Notes under the pieces: model-generated
What the model was told of the DNA's origin: nothing
Database searches by the model: none
What the model saw: the letters and a program-made list of their open reading frames with translations, nothing else
Shown here: one piece after another, positions 1,976-33,188 of the stretch
Numbering within the stretch: position 1 is the stretch's first letter
How the letters are laid out: each line of letters starts with the position of its first letter
Assembly: GCA_028867285.1 (NCBI GenBank)
Contig: JAGWGP010000003.1
Coordinates: 1 to 33,706 of the forward strand
From: Microcaldota archaeon
GTDB taxonomy: Archaea; Micrarchaeota; Micrarchaeia; Micrarchaeales; Micrarchaeaceae
Reading direction: 5' to 3'
DNA length: 33,706 nt
Position numbers and translations under genes: made by a program

Positions 1976-2227
1976 ATGGGCAGAGGAAAGGGCAAGACCG
2001 TGGGCCTGTCGGCGCTTGACCACGCGGCAGGGGAGCTGCAGTGGCTATCCGAGCATCCGAAGGAGGCCAAGGGCACGTCGATGAGGCAGGTGAGGAAGGA
2101 CATCGCCACGCTCACCAGGGGCGCGGCCCAGCAGGTATCGGGCATGTCCAAGGGCATAGCCCTGAGGGGAGGCAAGATGGTGGACCCCATGGGCCTCGGC
2201 AGCTCAGTTATAGACGAGATAGTCTAG
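1976..2227 (+). CDS. Small unknown basic protein
   Basis: This 83-residue protein begins MGRGKGKTVGL and contains several Lys/Arg residues in the first half and Gly/Met-rich stretches in the second (GMSKGIALRGGKMVDPMGLG). It has no membrane segment, no cysteines and no family I recognise. The start is supported by a TATA box 26 bases upstream. The codon use (AGG, AAG, GGC) matches its neighbours, which argues for a real gene. Its TAG stop shares the tetranucleotide CTAG (2224-2227) with the TAG stop of the convergent HAD gene. It may be lineage-specific. Confidence 0.65.
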   Translation: MGRGKGKTVGLSALDHAAGELQWLSEHPKEAKGTSMRQVRKDIATLTRGAAQQVSGMSKGIALRGGKMVDPMGLGSSVIDEIV

Positions 2228-2871
2228 CCGCGCAGTACCTTCCCGATCTCGTATATGTTGCTCAGCTTGTGGTCTATCCACGGCTCGGCGTAGCCTCCCT
2301 CCCCGCCCACGAGGACGGTTGTCATCCCAAGCTGCTTGGCTGGGAGCAGGAACTCCTTCTTGTCGTCGACGAACATGGTGCTCTGCGGGTCGTAGCCCGT
2401 GGCGGCGCCCGCGCGCAGGAAGGCACGGATGTCCGGCTTGGCGGCGAAGCCCATCTCCCTCGCGCCGATCACCTTCTCGAACCTGCCGCTGACGCCGAGC
2501 GTGGAGACGACCTTCCACGCATACTCCGAGTAGTTGTTGGTGAGTATCGACATCCGAGCATCGGTCGAGCCGAGGACAGACCTAAGCTTGGGGTCGGCGG
2601 CCACGCCGTTCCTCAGGAGGTCCACGCTCATGCAGGTGCCCCTCACGAACTCGTCGTAGGTTATGCCGTACTCTCTCTCGAAGAGGTAGGCCGAGTAGTC
2701 CACGCCGTACTTGCCGAACAGCCTGTTGCGCAGCGGCATCACCTCATCGGTAGGTATGCCGAGACGGGCCGAGGTGTACACCAGGAAGGCGGCCATCAGC
2801 GCCTGCCGGAGCTGGGCGTTGAGCCTGTACAGGGTCTCATCATTGTCGAACAGTATGTTTTTGACGGTCAT
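2224..2871 (-). CDS. HAD-superfamily hydrolase, pyrimidine 5'-nucleotidase-like
   Basis: This 215-residue protein shows the four HAD motifs: FDNDETLY with nucleophile D9 and D11, TNN at 111-113, K145 in AAKPD, and the acidic pair FVDD at 168-170. A helical cap lies between motifs I and II (about 20-95), as in the Sdt1/PhoE-like nucleotidase group whose motif I is FD-DxTLY. It probably dephosphorylates a small phosphometabolite such as a nucleoside monophosphate; the substrate cannot be read from sequence. A GGTGAT Shine-Dalgarno sits just upstream of the ATG, so the transcript has a leader. The region before it (2905-3113) looks like a separate structured RNA or a long structured leader. Confidence 0.82.
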   Translation of the reverse strand: MTVKNILFDNDETLYRLNAQLRQALMAAFLVYTSARLGIPTDEVMPLRNRLFGKYGVDYSAYLFEREYGITYDEFVRGTCMSVDLLRNGVAADPKLRSVLGSTDARMSILTNNYSEYAWKVVSTLGVSGRFEKVIGAREMGFAAKPDIRAFLRAGAATGYDPQSTMFVDDKKEFLLPAKQLGMTTVLVGGEGGYAEPWIDHKLSNIYEIGKVLRG

Positions 2872-2904
2872 AGGTAATCACCATTGCTCTCTCCAGGCCT
2901 TGGG

Positions 2905-3113
2905 AAAAAACAAACGCAGGAAGGGACCGAGCGACAGCTCAGTCATCCGATGCAAACCCCGGATGCGCCTGGCCCATGGGCATCGGGCATCAGACGGATC
3001 CTGAGACGTGATACCTATGGCGGCCCGAGGAGAAACCGGAGCGCATGCCGTCGGCTGGGAAAAGCCGTGCCTTAGCCGTTGCGCGTGCGCCAGTCATGTT
3101 CCAGACCTCATAA
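2905..3113 (-). ncRNA. Candidate structured non-coding RNA (or structured leader of the HAD gene)
   Basis: No convincing protein is encoded here. Read leftward, a TATA-like TTTTATAC (3144-3137) predicts a transcript start near 3113. Downstream there is a hairpin CGGCT/AGCCG with a 6-base loop (3067-3052). A long-range 7-bp pairing joins CCGATGC (2986-2980) to GCATCGG (2953-2947). A 7-bp hairpin ACTGAGC/GCTCGGT with a TGTC loop follows (2943-2926). The run TTTGTTTTTT ends near 2905, a plausible archaeal terminator. I looked for RNase P, SRP and 5S signatures and did not find them. The identity is unknown. It could also be a 5' leader of the HAD gene, which starts 34 bases beyond the T-run. Confidence 0.45.
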
Positions 3114-3136
3114 GTAATGGGTTAGTGGGGAAGGAC

Positions 3137-3144
3137 GTATAAAA
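3137..3144 (-). promoter_or_regulatory. TATA box for the candidate RNA
   Basis: TTTTATAC read leftward is centred about 27 bases before the predicted RNA start near 3113. It is the only clear AT-rich box between the permease gene and the HAD gene. Confidence 0.45.
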
Positions 3145-3179
3145 GCGTTGTGTGCGAAAACCGCATTGCGCGCCGGAAG

Positions 3180-4505
3180 CTACAGAGTCCTCAGCGCGTC
3201 TATGGGCTCCAGCTTCGACGCGCGCCACGCGGGATAGACGCCGGCGACCACGCTCACGAGCATCGCCACAGCTATCGCCTCGATTATCGTGGAGAGCGGG
3301 AACACGGGGCTGAAGGAGATGGAGCTCGATGAGGAGCTGCTCCCGCCCCCGAAGCCACCGCCGCTACCGCCCCCGCCGCCGAACTGCGCGTTGCCACCTC
3401 CGCCCCGCCCGCCGCCTCCGCCAGAGGTGGTTGCTGCGCCGGAACCTGCGCCGCCGGAGCCGTTGGACCCTGCGCTTAGGACTGTGGAGAGGCCGTAGGC
3501 CCCGCCCGCGCCGACGGCTATGCCGGCTATCCCGCCAATGAGCCCGATCAGCAGCGCCTGTATCAGGAATATCATGAGTATGTGCCTGTTCTTGAAGCCC
3601 ACCGACTTGAGTATGCCGATCTCATGGGTCCTCTCATAGACGGCGATGAGCATTATGTTCATTATCCCGATGGCAGCGACTACAAGGGAGACCCCCGCTA
3701 TGACGGCGAACAGGAGGGTTATCGAGCCGAGTATCGATGATGTGGTCTGTATCAGCGCGGCAGTGGTGGTGATCCTTGCGCTGTTGCCGTAGATGTTGGA
3801 TATCAGCGCGGCGGTGGAGTTGACCGTGGTGGTGTTGGAGGCAAGGACCAGCATCATGTTGAAGGATGACTTGTGGAGCAGCAGCTCGGCCGCAGACAGG
3901 GACATCATTACGCCGGTGTCTATGGGGATTATGAAGCCGCCATGGGCCTGCAGGATACCGGCGATCGGGATGCCGATGGATGTGCTGCCCTTCCCCTCGA
4001 GCTTCAGGGTCGCGGTCTGTCCGACTATCACCGACTGCGCGCCTGAGCCGGAGGCGGGAAACGCTACGGTGTGGCCGACCACCGCGATCGGCGCTATGGT
4101 GTCCTGGTATATAGTTCCCTGGTACATGCTCACGTTGCCGCCAAGGAGCTGCTTCAGCCCCTGCGTGGTGGTGCCTATCAGCGTCACTGAGGAGTTCTGG
4201 CCGCCCGAGGACAGGCTTCCGCTGCCGGTCAGCAGGGGCGTCACGCTGGCCACGTTGGGAAGGCCGGAGACCCTGGCGGAGTCTGCGACCGTGAATCCCA
4301 CGGGACCCACAGAGGAGACTATTATCGAGGTGGGGCCAAGTGAATTAAGGGAGGCGCTTATGCTCTGGCTCAACCCAGCGGTGACCGATGTCAGCCCTAT
4401 TATCGCGGCCACGCCTATCATCACCATGACAACGGTGAGGGCGGTCCTTACCTTCTTCTCGCTCAGGTCCCTGTAGCTCAGCCAGAAGATGTCTTGTATC
4501 TCCAT
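3180..4505 (-). CDS. ABC transporter permease, MacB/FtsX type
   Basis: This 441-residue protein has the MacB/FtsX layout: TM1 at about 21-43, a large extracytoplasmic domain (44-255), and three C-terminal helices at about 258-290, 306-342 and 404-425. The coupling segment ERTHEIGILKSVGFKN lies at 291-306 and the end is YPAWRASKLEPIDALRTL, both typical of the family. Between TM3 and TM4 there is a Gly/Ser-rich stretch (about 344-396) that the family does not normally have. It is the last gene of a three-gene operon after the ATPase and the anchored secreted protein. Such modules move lipids, peptides or lipoproteins or do mechanical work; the substrate is unknown. Confidence 0.9.
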   Translation of the reverse strand: MEIQDIFWLSYRDLSEKKVRTALTVVMVMIGVAAIIGLTSVTAGLSQSISASLNSLGPTSIIVSSVGPVGFTVADSARVSGLPNVASVTPLLTGSGSLSSGGQNSSVTLIGTTTQGLKQLLGGNVSMYQGTIYQDTIAPIAVVGHTVAFPASGSGAQSVIVGQTATLKLEGKGSTSIGIPIAGILQAHGGFIIPIDTGVMMSLSAAELLLHKSSFNMMLVLASNTTTVNSTAALISNIYGNSARITTTAALIQTTSSILGSITLLFAVIAGVSLVVAAIGIMNIMLIAVYERTHEIGILKSVGFKNRHILMIFLIQALLIGLIGGIAGIAVGAGGAYGLSTVLSAGSNGSGGAGSGAATTSGGGGGRGGGGNAQFGGGGGSGGGFGGGSSSSSSSISFSPVFPLSTIIEAIAVAMLVSVVAGVYPAWRASKLEPIDALRTL

Positions 4506-11278: not shown

Positions 11279-11797
11279 TCACTTCAGGCCGAACTCCTTC
11301 TTTATCTTGCCCACCTTGGGCCTTATCACGAACATGCAGTAGGGCTGGAGCGGGTTGTTCTTGTAGTAGTCCTTGTGGTAGTCCTCAGATTCGTAGAATG
11401 CGTCGAGCCTCTTGACCTCGGTGGCGACGGGCTTCTTGAAGTTCGGAGCGATCCGCTTGATGTAGTCGAGTATCACCTTCTTCTGCGCGTCGTCGCTGTA
11501 GAGGATTATCGAGCGGTACTGGGAGCCTATGTCGGCGCCCTGCTGGTTGACAGAGGTCGGGTCGTGCGATGTGAAGAATATCTCGAGCAGCTTCTCAAGT
11601 GGAGCCACCTTCGGGTCGTAGTCCACCCTCAGCACCTCTGCGTGGCCGGTCTCGCCGCTGCAGACATCCTCGTAAGTGGGGTTCTTGGTGTGACCGCCGG
11701 CGTAGCCCGGGGTGGTCTTCACGACGCCGTTGAACATCTTGAACACCGCCTCGGTGCACCAGAAGCATCCGCCGCCGAACACGATGCTGTCAGTCAT
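11279..11797 (-). CDS. msrA: Peptide methionine-S-sulfoxide reductase MsrA
   Basis: This 172-residue enzyme reduces the S epimer of methionine sulfoxide. The catalytic motif GCFWC is at residues 10-14 (C11 nucleophile), followed by [24 protein letters not shown], the family core. A resolving cysteine is present near the C-terminus in QPYCMFV. I chose the ATG at 11797 because it puts the catalytic motif at the usual distance and overlaps the end of msrB by 8 bases; GAGG lies 6 bases upstream. Together with msrB it forms a complete two-gene protein-repair unit. Confidence 0.95.
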
Positions 11798-12188
11798 TCG
11801 CCTCATCCTTAATCTTGTCACGAGGTACAAATCGCATGGATATGGAGTTGACGCAGTACCTTGTGTTCTTCTTGGTGAGCCTCTCGCCTATGAAGACGTG
11901 CCCAAGGTGAGCGCCGCAGTTGGCGCACTCTATCTCGGTCCTCTCGCCGTCGGGGTCGGGCAGCCTCTTCACCGCGCCGCTTATCTCGTCGTCGAAGCTC
12001 GGCCATCCGCAGTGCGCGTCGAACTTATCCTTTGAGTCGTACAGCTTTGCGCCGCAGCGCCTGCACACGTATATCCCGTCCCTTGAGAAGTGGTCGTACT
12101 CGCCGCTGAATGGCGCCTCGGTCCCCTTGTGGACTATGACCCTCTCCTCCTCGGGGGTGAGCTTGCTGTATTTTTTCTCTCCGGCCAC
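11790..12188 (-). CDS. msrB: Peptide methionine-R-sulfoxide reductase MsrB
   Basis: This 132-residue enzyme reduces the R epimer of methionine sulfoxide. Two CxxC pairs (C42/C45 and C88/C91) form the structural zinc site. The catalytic cysteine is C112 in [13 protein letters not shown], and C60 in HCGWPSF is a candidate resolving residue. The start is a GTG at 12188. An AT-rich TATA-like element centred near 12213 lies 26 bases upstream, indicating a leaderless transcript. It is first in the msrB-msrA unit, just downstream of the tRNA-Thr gene. Confidence 0.95.
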
Positions 12189-12235: not shown

Positions 12236-12307
12236 AGCCTCGAGAGGGAATTGAACCCTCGACCTCTTGTTTACAAGACAAGCGCTCTACCACTGAGCTA
12301 CCGAGGC
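12236..12307 (-). tRNA. tRNA-Thr (anticodon UGU)
   Basis: This is a complete cloverleaf of 72 bases. The acceptor stem pairs GCCTCGG with TCGAGGC (one G-U at the base). The D arm has GCTC/GAGC, the anticodon stem CTTGT/ACAAG has loop CTTGTAA and so anticodon TGT, and the T arm GAGGG/CCCTC has loop TTCAATT. The discriminator base is U73, which is common for archaeal tRNA-Thr. The CCA end is not encoded and no intron is seen. Confidence 0.95.
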
Positions 12308-23537: not shown

Positions 23538-25331
23538 ATGGAAAACCTGTTGCTGTTCGCCGGAGCTGCCATAATTGTGGTGCTGATTGGCGCCGTTTTA
23601 TATGCATTTACCAATGGGGGCGTGCCCACAGGCGTAAAAGGCAGTAACAGCGCAAACTCGCCGGTTTCTACCGCTTCTGCGCCTTCAAACACCTCTGCCA
23701 ACTCCGTTACTGCCATCCAGGACACCAAGTCTAGCAATTCGGCTGGGAACGCCTCAACAAACTCGACCATAGCTACAGCATTGGCCGCGTGTACAAAAGC
23801 GGGGATACCATCCCCGCAATGCCAGAGCTACTGCAAGAGCAATCCCCCAGCCTGCGGCCTAGGCAGCGGACCAGGGAGCACCTCGGCCAATGATAGCAAC
23901 CAGAGCCTTTACAGGAGGATTGATGTTGGTCAGTCCGCGACCATATCACAGTTTAAAATCGGGCTTGTGAACATAACTTACCCTGAGGGCGTGGCAACGG
24001 CCTTGCTCAATGTTAGCCAAGGGCCATACTCCCGCTCGGTCCAGATAGAGCAGAGGCAGTACGTTGGGTTCGGCGAAAACGGAACAGGCCCGTATATCGC
24101 GGTGTACCAGATCAATAGCACAGTCTCGCCAGGGTGGGTCACGCTTAACGTAGTATTTGCAGCTGTGGCAGGTTTCAGCGCAGTCGGTAATCAACAAATG
24201 AACACCACAAACAGCGCACAGGGTAGCAGCGTAGGAGGCAGCCAGGGCTTAGCGTACATGCTACCGACCTGCCAGAATCAAGCCTACCTCACCGCACCGG
24301 CAACCAATCTTTCATCGGTACTTAACATAACGCCACTAGGTAGCCTCAATCCGCAGGGTGGGCATCCGATCCCGTCGGATCATGGGGGATGGTCTATAGC
24401 AAATCCGCATGACGTCGCGGCAACCATATATGCCCCTGGAGATGTGCATGTGCTGCAGATAGTGGCACAAAACTCCACGATCAACGGCCAGAGTTTCCAG
24501 GATGATGCGATCTACTTTGCCCCATGCCAGCAGCTGGTATTCTACTATGGGCACGTCGCGCATCTTTCTGATGCATTGCAGCAGCAGGTCAACAATGCCA
24601 GCAAGTCGGCATACTGCCAGCACAGCGTGCAGCCGGCCGGCACATCAACAACCTGCACGTACTCTCTCAACTACGTGATTAGTGCAGGAAAAGTTCTTGG
24701 CAGCGCTGGAGGGCCCGGCACTTCGATTTTGGGCTTTGACTTCGGGGGATATGACTACCGCACAATAGCGCCAGCCTTCATAGACCCCACAAGGGAAATG
24801 AACGATTTTGGAAGGCCGGTAAATGTCATATTCCCTCTAGATTACTATTCCGCATCAATGCAGGGCGTGCTTTATCCGCTTGTCAAGGATACTCTGAAGG
24901 GATCGAATGGCTATCCCTCGGAATGGACAAACATGCAGGATCTTGCAGGCACCGTTCAAGGCAACTGGTATCTCAATGGAAGCTCTTCGACAGGCGAAGC
25001 AAACTGGTCACAGCAGATGTCGATAGTCCATTACTACGAGAATCCTTCAATCGGTGTGATTTCCGTTGGCGGAGTGCTTGCGCAGGCCAGCATGATCACA
25101 TTCAACCCAAGATCCGAGGGCTATGTAAACAGGGAGCCGTCGCAGGTAACCGCTGATGGGCATGTGTACTGCTATTATCAGGACAACTGGAATACATCTT
25201 ACGGCCTCTCTCCGCTGAGCGGCTACTTTGAGCTGCAGCTCATCAGCGCAAATGTCTTGAGAATCCAGTACCAGGATGGCTCGTGCCCGCAAGATCCCAC
25301 GTTCACCAACGCTACCGAATATATCAGGTAA
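23538..25331 (+). CDS. Secreted or anchored protein with M23-peptidase-like signature
   Basis: This 597-residue protein has an N-terminal membrane helix (about 5-24), a Ser/Thr/Asn-rich linker (36-80), a Cys-containing stretch (85-106), a beta-rich domain (125-215) and a large C-terminal domain. PLGSLNPQGGHPIPSDHGGW (266-285) and later YYGHVAHLS (336-344) recall the metal-site region and YGHL loop of M23/LytM-type proteins, but the complete zinc triad is not clear, so it may be non-enzymatic. It holds more than ten NxS/T sites. Its codons are more mixed and less GC-rich than those of its neighbours, which suggests rapid evolution or transfer. It is monocistronic with its own TATA box. Confidence 0.72.
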   Translation: MENLLLFAGAAIIVVLIGAVLYAFTNGGVPTGVKGSNSANSPVSTASAPSNTSANSVTAIQDTKSSNSAGNASTNSTIATALAACTKAGIPSPQCQSYCKSNPPACGLGSGPGSTSANDSNQSLYRRIDVGQSATISQFKIGLVNITYPEGVATALLNVSQGPYSRSVQIEQRQYVGFGENGTGPYIAVYQINSTVSPGWVTLNVVFAAVAGFSAVGNQQMNTTNSAQGSSVGGSQGLAYMLPTCQNQAYLTAPATNLSSVLNITPLGSLNPQGGHPIPSDHGGWSIANPHDVAATIYAPGDVHVLQIVAQNSTINGQSFQDDAIYFAPCQQLVFYYGHVAHLSDALQQQVNNASKSAYCQHSVQPAGTSTTCTYSLNYVISAGKVLGSAGGPGTSILGFDFGGYDYRTIAPAFIDPTREMNDFGRPVNVIFPLDYYSASMQGVLYPLVKDTLKGSNGYPSEWTNMQDLAGTVQGNWYLNGSSSTGEANWSQQMSIVHYYENPSIGVISVGGVLAQASMITFNPRSEGYVNREPSQVTADGHVYCYYQDNWNTSYGLSPLSGYFELQLISANVLRIQYQDGSCPQDPTFTNATEYIR

Positions 25332-31799: not shown

Positions 31800-33188
31800 A
31801 TGAGCGTAATGAAATTCGAGAAGGAGTACAAGACGATAAAGAGCGTTGCTGGGCCGCTGCTGGTGGTGGAGAAGGTAAGGGACGCGGCCTACAACGAGGT
31901 AGTGAGGATAAACCTGCCGAACGGGGAGACCAAGCTGGGGCAGGTGCTGGAGAGCACCGACAAGTTTGCGGTGGTGCAGATATTCGGGCAGACCAGCGGG
32001 ATAAACATAAGCGACACATCGGTCAGCTTCCTGGGCGACACGTTCAGGATAGGGGTGTCGGAGGAGATGCTCGGCAGGGTGTTCGACGGGCAGGGAAGGC
32101 CGATAGACATAAAGGCGGCAATAACGGCGAAGGAGAAGAGGGACATCAACGGGGAGCCGCTCAATCCAGTATCAAGGGCGATGCCCAAGGACTTCATAGA
32201 GACAGGAATATCAACGATAGACGGGCTGATAACCCTGGTCAGGGGGCAGAAGCTCCCGATATTCTCGGGATCTGGACTCACCCACAACGACCTTGCTGCG
32301 CAGATAACCAGGCAGGCGAAGGTGAAGAACAGCACCGAGGATTTCGCGGTGGTGTTCGCCGGAATTGGGATAACCCACGACGACGCGGAGTTCTTCATAA
32401 GGGACTTCGAGAAGACCGGGGCGCTGAAGAGGACGGTGGCGTTCATCAACATGGCTGACGACCCGAGCATAGAGAGGATACTCACCCCGAGGCTCGCGCT
32501 CACGACAGCGGAGTACCTCGCGTACGAGAAGGACATGCACGTGCTGGTGATAATGACGGACATGACCAACTACTGCGAGGCGCTGAGGGAGCTGGCGAGC
32601 GCAAGGGAGGAGGTCCCTGGAAGGAGGGGATACCCGGGTTACATGTACACCGACCTGGCAAGCCTGTACGAGAGGGCGGGGATAGTGGTCGGGAAGAAGG
32701 GGAGCATAACCCAGCTCGACATACTGACCATGCCCAGCGACGACGTCACCCACCCGATACCCGACCTGACGGGCTACATAACGGAGGGGCAGATATACCT
32801 GAACAGGGAGCTGGCGAACAAGGCCATCTACCCATCGGTAGACCCGCTCGGTTCGCTCTCCAGGCTCATGAACAACGGGATAGGAAACGGCAAGACGAGG
32901 GAGGACCACAGGGGAGTCGCGGACCAGCTCTACGGATTCTACGCGAAGGCGAAGGAGGCGAAGAGCCTCAGCTCGATAGTGGGAATAGAGGCGCTGAGCG
33001 ACATAGAGAAGAAGTACCTCAAGTTCGGCGAGAACTTCGAGAAGAGGTTCATACAGCAGGGAAGGTACGAGGACAGGAGCATAGAGAGGACGCTCGAGAT
33101 CGGGTGGGAGCTGCTGTCGGAATTCGACCAGAACGACCTCACGAGGATAAAGACGGACTACATAGGCAAGTACTACAAGAAGAAGTGA
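31800..33188 (+). CDS. atpB: A-type ATP synthase subunit B (non-catalytic)
   Basis: This 462-residue protein is the regulatory nucleotide-binding subunit. It has [13 protein letters not shown], the modified P-loop region [17 protein letters not shown] (a B-type sequence lacking the catalytic GKT), [34 protein letters not shown] and [32 protein letters not shown]. All are near-invariant in the family. GGTGAT lies upstream of the ATG with 3 bases between. An in-frame ATG at 31809 is an alternative start. The TGA stop is followed by TATC and then the presumed atpD start. Confidence 0.97.

Follow-up and report, generated by a model that had tools for sequence, protein, structure and literature searches.

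What kind of transcript, if any, is specified by the gap of 308 nt (2872-3179) that separates two minus-strand genes of a Microcaldota archaeon, one encoding an FtsX/MacB-type permease and the other a HAD hydrolase? The window, that is, the whole stretch of 33,706 nucleotides analysed here, is contig C33 of a 768-kb, 87%-complete assembly of 87 contigs, and the spacer is long given the compact genome. The upstream permease gene (3180-4505, minus strand) stands at the end of a conserved ABC-p436-FtsX operon, and its nearest named relatives are found in 'Candidatus Micrarchaeota' MAGs. The downstream gene (2224-2871, minus strand) encodes a 215-aa HAD-family hydrolase, for which the best model is pyrimidine 5'-nucleotidase, with a score (110.7 bits) below the cut-off (142.9). 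A sequence-only reading had interpreted the gap as the site of a stable structured RNA with its own promoter and a terminal T-run. We consider it moderately probable, judging from the arrangement of the signals described below, that the region instead comprises the promoter of the HAD phosphatase gene and its long 5' leader (~240 nt).

Signals in the gap

The gap contains one perfect YTTAWA box on the minus strand, TTTATA (3143-3138), which lies inside CTTTTATACG. Exact boxes of this type are rare: there are 20 in the window on both strands, and 14 of these are in the noncoding part, which as counted makes up 13.8% of the window. The box is thus beyond chance, in agreement with the earlier claim of a TATA box. 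Based on the spacing between TATA boxes and gene starts within the window, transcription would be expected to start about 25-30 nt downstream, at 3111-3116 on the minus strand. For example, a TATA-like box is found ~25-40 nt ahead of the start codon in the genes at 128, 1976 and 19983, a spacing that matches the expectation for leaderless or short-leader mRNAs. A bacterial-type promoter was also sought in the stretch, and none was found.

At the other end of the stretch is the U-tract TTTGTTTTTT (2914-2905, minus strand), a possible archaeal (aCPSF1-type) terminator. T-runs of at least six occur at only four places in the window on both strands, and 10-mers with at least eight T including a T6 run at two, this tract being among the places in both counts. 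The T-run is therefore also beyond chance, and this part of the earlier description holds. In archaea, a U-tract is a terminator element by itself, with aCPSF1 as its partner, and in Methanococcus maripaludis the efficiency of terminators that have a single U4-tract was intermediate (PMC8716108). Close to the 3' end of the stretch is a small hairpin, GACUGAGC/GCUCGGUC (2925-2944, minus strand), with one G-U pair and the loop UGUC. It was rejected as a bacterial-type terminator because its distance from the T-run, 10 nt, is too large, and a search of the stretch for a hairpin-plus-T terminator found none.

The sequence between these signals is noncoding, in agreement with the earlier claim. Codon usage in all six frames of the gap is far under that of real genes, and a Pfam search of the stretch gave no meaningful match, the best one (E = 0.016) falling below the cut-off. 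Promoter, noncoding stretch and T-run support a transcript that would start at about 3113 and could end at about 2905, and to this extent the earlier interpretation stands; the part that is not supported is the stable structured RNA.

Structure, known families and conservation

The noncoding stretch itself (2905-3115, minus strand, 211 nt) is a candidate leader or small RNA, the fold of which is within chance. It had been described as having several perfect hairpins and a long-range 7-bp pairing, but such stems occur as frequently in dinucleotide shuffles: there are 24 perfect Watson-Crick five-mer stems compared with 22.7 in the shuffles, 5 six-mer stems compared with 5.9, and 1 seven-mer stem compared with 1.4, a number that 68% of the shuffles match or exceed. 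The minimum free energy, -82.9 kcal/mol, is similarly unexceptional (z = -1.28 to -1.5); 24 of 200 shuffles are equally good, and the energy lies at about the 7.5th percentile among 160 other pieces of the window. The structure is thus not beyond chance. Note that z-scores have little power in this case, since recognised stable RNAs do not stand out either (-1.8 for this genome's RNase P RNA and -1.0 for SRP RNA from a genome of the same genus). The main value of this result is as a caution that, in a GC-rich genome, chance yields perfect stems and good folding energies.

At the gathering threshold, no Rfam family, riboswitches included, was matched in the stretch, which bears out the earlier statement that standard RNase P and SRP motifs are absent. 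When the search was relaxed to E values up to 10, only two snoRNA matches were obtained, sR40 (12 bits, gathering 50) and sn2343 (13 bits, gathering 60), both of which are at chance level. Three specific classes are ruled out. RNase P RNA (RF00373) has no covariance-model match in the stretch, and the genome's own copy is elsewhere (C5:7007-7239, 74 bits); a C/D-box sRNA would have a C/D and an internal D'/C' box set at the usual spacing, which is found on neither strand; and the sole minus-strand ACA is at position 17, ahead of any complete hairpin, as opposed to its place 3' of a hairpin in an H/ACA sRNA.

We then consider conservation. BLASTN of the stretch against the 84 other genomes of the family gave only short chance matches (~15-37 nt, E >= 0.026). 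A covariance model, built from the stretch itself as a single sequence with its MFE structure, found only itself in 85 family genomes and 48 loci, and no relative in 24 further named genomes; hence, there was nothing to count in a check for covariation. The positive control, which applies to the DNA search and not to the covariance-model search, was this genome's RNase P RNA, and it was detected in 68 of the 85 genomes. A search of a phage collection with the stretch gave no match.

The RNase P RNA of the same-genus genome G001 is 94% identical to that of this genome. The absence of the stretch from G001 says little, because that genome, at 73% completeness, contains neither of the flanking genes. 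More generally, the ABC-p436-permease operon is widely kept, whereas the gap and the HAD gene are not. Within the phylum, the best match to the HAD protein reaches 31% identity; the DNA upstream of that match is rich in AT and not evidently similar.

A separate observation concerns the RNase P RNA search: on the strand of the main RNase P RNA gene and 1.3-1.7 kb from it, two relatives contain a further, incomplete match to RNase P RNA (G008:C11:23933-24089 and G026:C3:32634-32807), and the match in G008 includes a 43-nt piece that is 100% identical to the RNase P RNA of the present genome.

Taken as a whole, the suggestion that the gap has the layout of a stable archaeal RNA is not supported: excess structure, a known family and homologs in the relatives searched are all lacking, and a terminal T-run is absent from the two recognised stable RNAs used for comparison, this genome's RNase P RNA and the SRP RNA of the same-genus genome.

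A probable leader of the HAD gene

The HAD gene has the same direction as the candidate transcript, and its start codon is 34 nt past the T-run, with 33 bases in between. It is preceded by a Shine-Dalgarno-like motif, GGTGAT (2877-2882, minus strand); operon-internal genes of the window, such as that at 31800, have such a motif too (aaggtgatctc directly before the ATG). In addition, a separate TATA box for the HAD gene is lacking, since no TATA-like site with at least 5/6 matches is closer to its start than ~240 nt. Because the gene is led by a Shine-Dalgarno-like motif and the nearest TATA box is that at 3143, we read the gap as a promoter and a leader of ~240 nt: the promoter is upstream, the gene is downstream on the same strand, and there is no nearer promoter. 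Leader of the HAD gene is the alternative under which the sequence-only reading was to be given up, and it fits better than a separate RNA gene. It is the most economical and most likely explanation. The sequence is also not detectably conserved, unlike RNase P RNA, as one would expect if it were a leader and not a core RNA.

Under this reading, transcription would start near 3113 and run through the noncoding stretch. A fraction of the transcripts may terminate at the single U-tract, leaving a leader RNA of ~200 nt, and the remainder would read through into the HAD gene, so that the U-tract would set the level of HAD by partial termination. Such termination, here and in the phylum, may be proposed by analogy. 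In the arrangement of a TATA box, a long untranslated stretch, a U-tract and a Shine-Dalgarno-led gene on the same strand, the region resembles those 5' leaders of archaeal mRNAs in which termination occurs at an internal U-tract; it differs from them in being known from sequence alone, in having no known ligand or aptamer and in lacking relatives by which to judge conservation.

Several points argue against a leader. Transcripts of the permease operon that read through could account for HAD expression, and the T-rich block 34-43 nt before its start could be a poor AT-rich promoter core. Moreover, no ortholog of the locus in which promoter, leader and HAD travel together was found among the genomes searched.

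A stronger version of the leader reading, that this is a lineage-specific DPANN regulatory leader in which conditional U-tract termination controls the nucleotidase-like HAD gene and releases a short RNA, is in our view improbable. Such a leader would possibly be sensitive to the level of UTP or to a pyrimidine ligand, although a link between pyrimidines and the U-tract is only speculation. If the region is transcribed as proposed, it would hint at control by termination within leaders in Micrarchaeota, a group for which literature searches found neither studies of leaderless transcription nor studies of noncoding RNA.

Other explanations

One possible but unlikely alternative is that the gap holds a separate small RNA gene, specific to the lineage, whose promoter and U-tract terminator are its own and whose product is, for example, a regulatory sRNA. 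Promoter, noncoding stretch and U-tract do form a self-contained unit of ~210 nt, and U-tracts can form the end of noncoding RNAs in archaea (PMC8716108). The stretch also resembles archaeal intergenic sRNAs, such as sRNA162 of Methanosarcina mazei (PMC3510493), in that it is noncoding, lies between genes and is preceded by a promoter, with the difference that it is known here only as sequence. On the other side, it has no excess structure and matches no known RNA family, and homologs are found in none of the 84 other family genomes and none of the 24 further named ones, compared with the much wider recovery of RNase P RNA by the same DNA search.

The gap may also be a non-functional spacer that separates two transcription units at a synteny break, in which the TATA box serves HAD and the T-run either ends the permease transcripts or is incidental. 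This is consistent with the conservation of the permease operon but not of its downstream side: in L101, the closest relative found for the permease (68% identity), a different gene follows after ~50 nt. However, a T-run located beyond a promoter would be an odd place for the terminator of the permease operon, and 308 nt is long for a spacer in a compact genome, and we consider this explanation rather improbable.

A chain of short ORFs runs through the leader (3111-2878, minus strand; 5, 35, 15 and 22 codons) with stop-start overlaps of the ATGA/TGATG type. It is probably due to chance, and codon usage is poor in those ORFs that were scored. Its first two members could in principle specify a small protein with a leaderless or short-leader mRNA, since the ATG of the 5-codon ORF at 3111 is ~30 nt past the TATA box and the ORF overlaps (ATGA) the 35-codon ORF (3097-2990) in the manner of coupled genes. 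The latter, the best small ORF tested, has a codon score of -0.395, which is under the 1st percentile (-0.27) of true 35-codon pieces (mean +0.65), and it has neither a meaningful Pfam match nor relatives, which makes a small protein very improbable.

Finally, the stretch shares with archaeal RNase P RNA (RF00373) and SRP RNA (RF01857) a similar length and a noncoding, intergenic character, and differs in that the RNase P RNA of this genome is on contig C5 and that the SRP covariance model has no match in the stretch at E values up to 10. A divergent housekeeping RNA might be suspected because the SRP model, which matches 24 of 25 relatives, finds nothing credible in this assembly (best 9.4 bits, E = 2.9, outside the stretch). 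In the same-genus genome, the SRP RNA adjoins a translation-factor-like gene near a contig end, and this gene is also absent from the 87%-complete assembly; the whole SRP locus is therefore probably unassembled. Substitution of the SRP RNA by the stretch is thus rejected, SRP RNA itself being very unlikely, and the chance that the stretch is any divergent housekeeping RNA is close to negligible.

In the course of this work, we noted that all SRP RNAs in this family of Micrarchaeota and in its order fall short of the Archaea_SRP gathering threshold of 96.5 bits, scoring at most 94, so that standard annotation will miss them. Two other observations concern the window. An ORF of 597 aa (23538-25331, plus strand) has an N-terminal transmembrane-like stretch, is rich in Ser, Asn and Thr, and gave no Pfam match; its codon score (-0.115) is far from those of the other genes in the window, its GC content is lower (52-55%), and it is perhaps a fast-evolving or acquired surface protein. 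Downstream of tRNA-Thr (12236-12307), two adjacent genes at 11279-12188 (minus strand) resemble, as judged by eye, the methionine sulfoxide reductases MsrB and MsrA.
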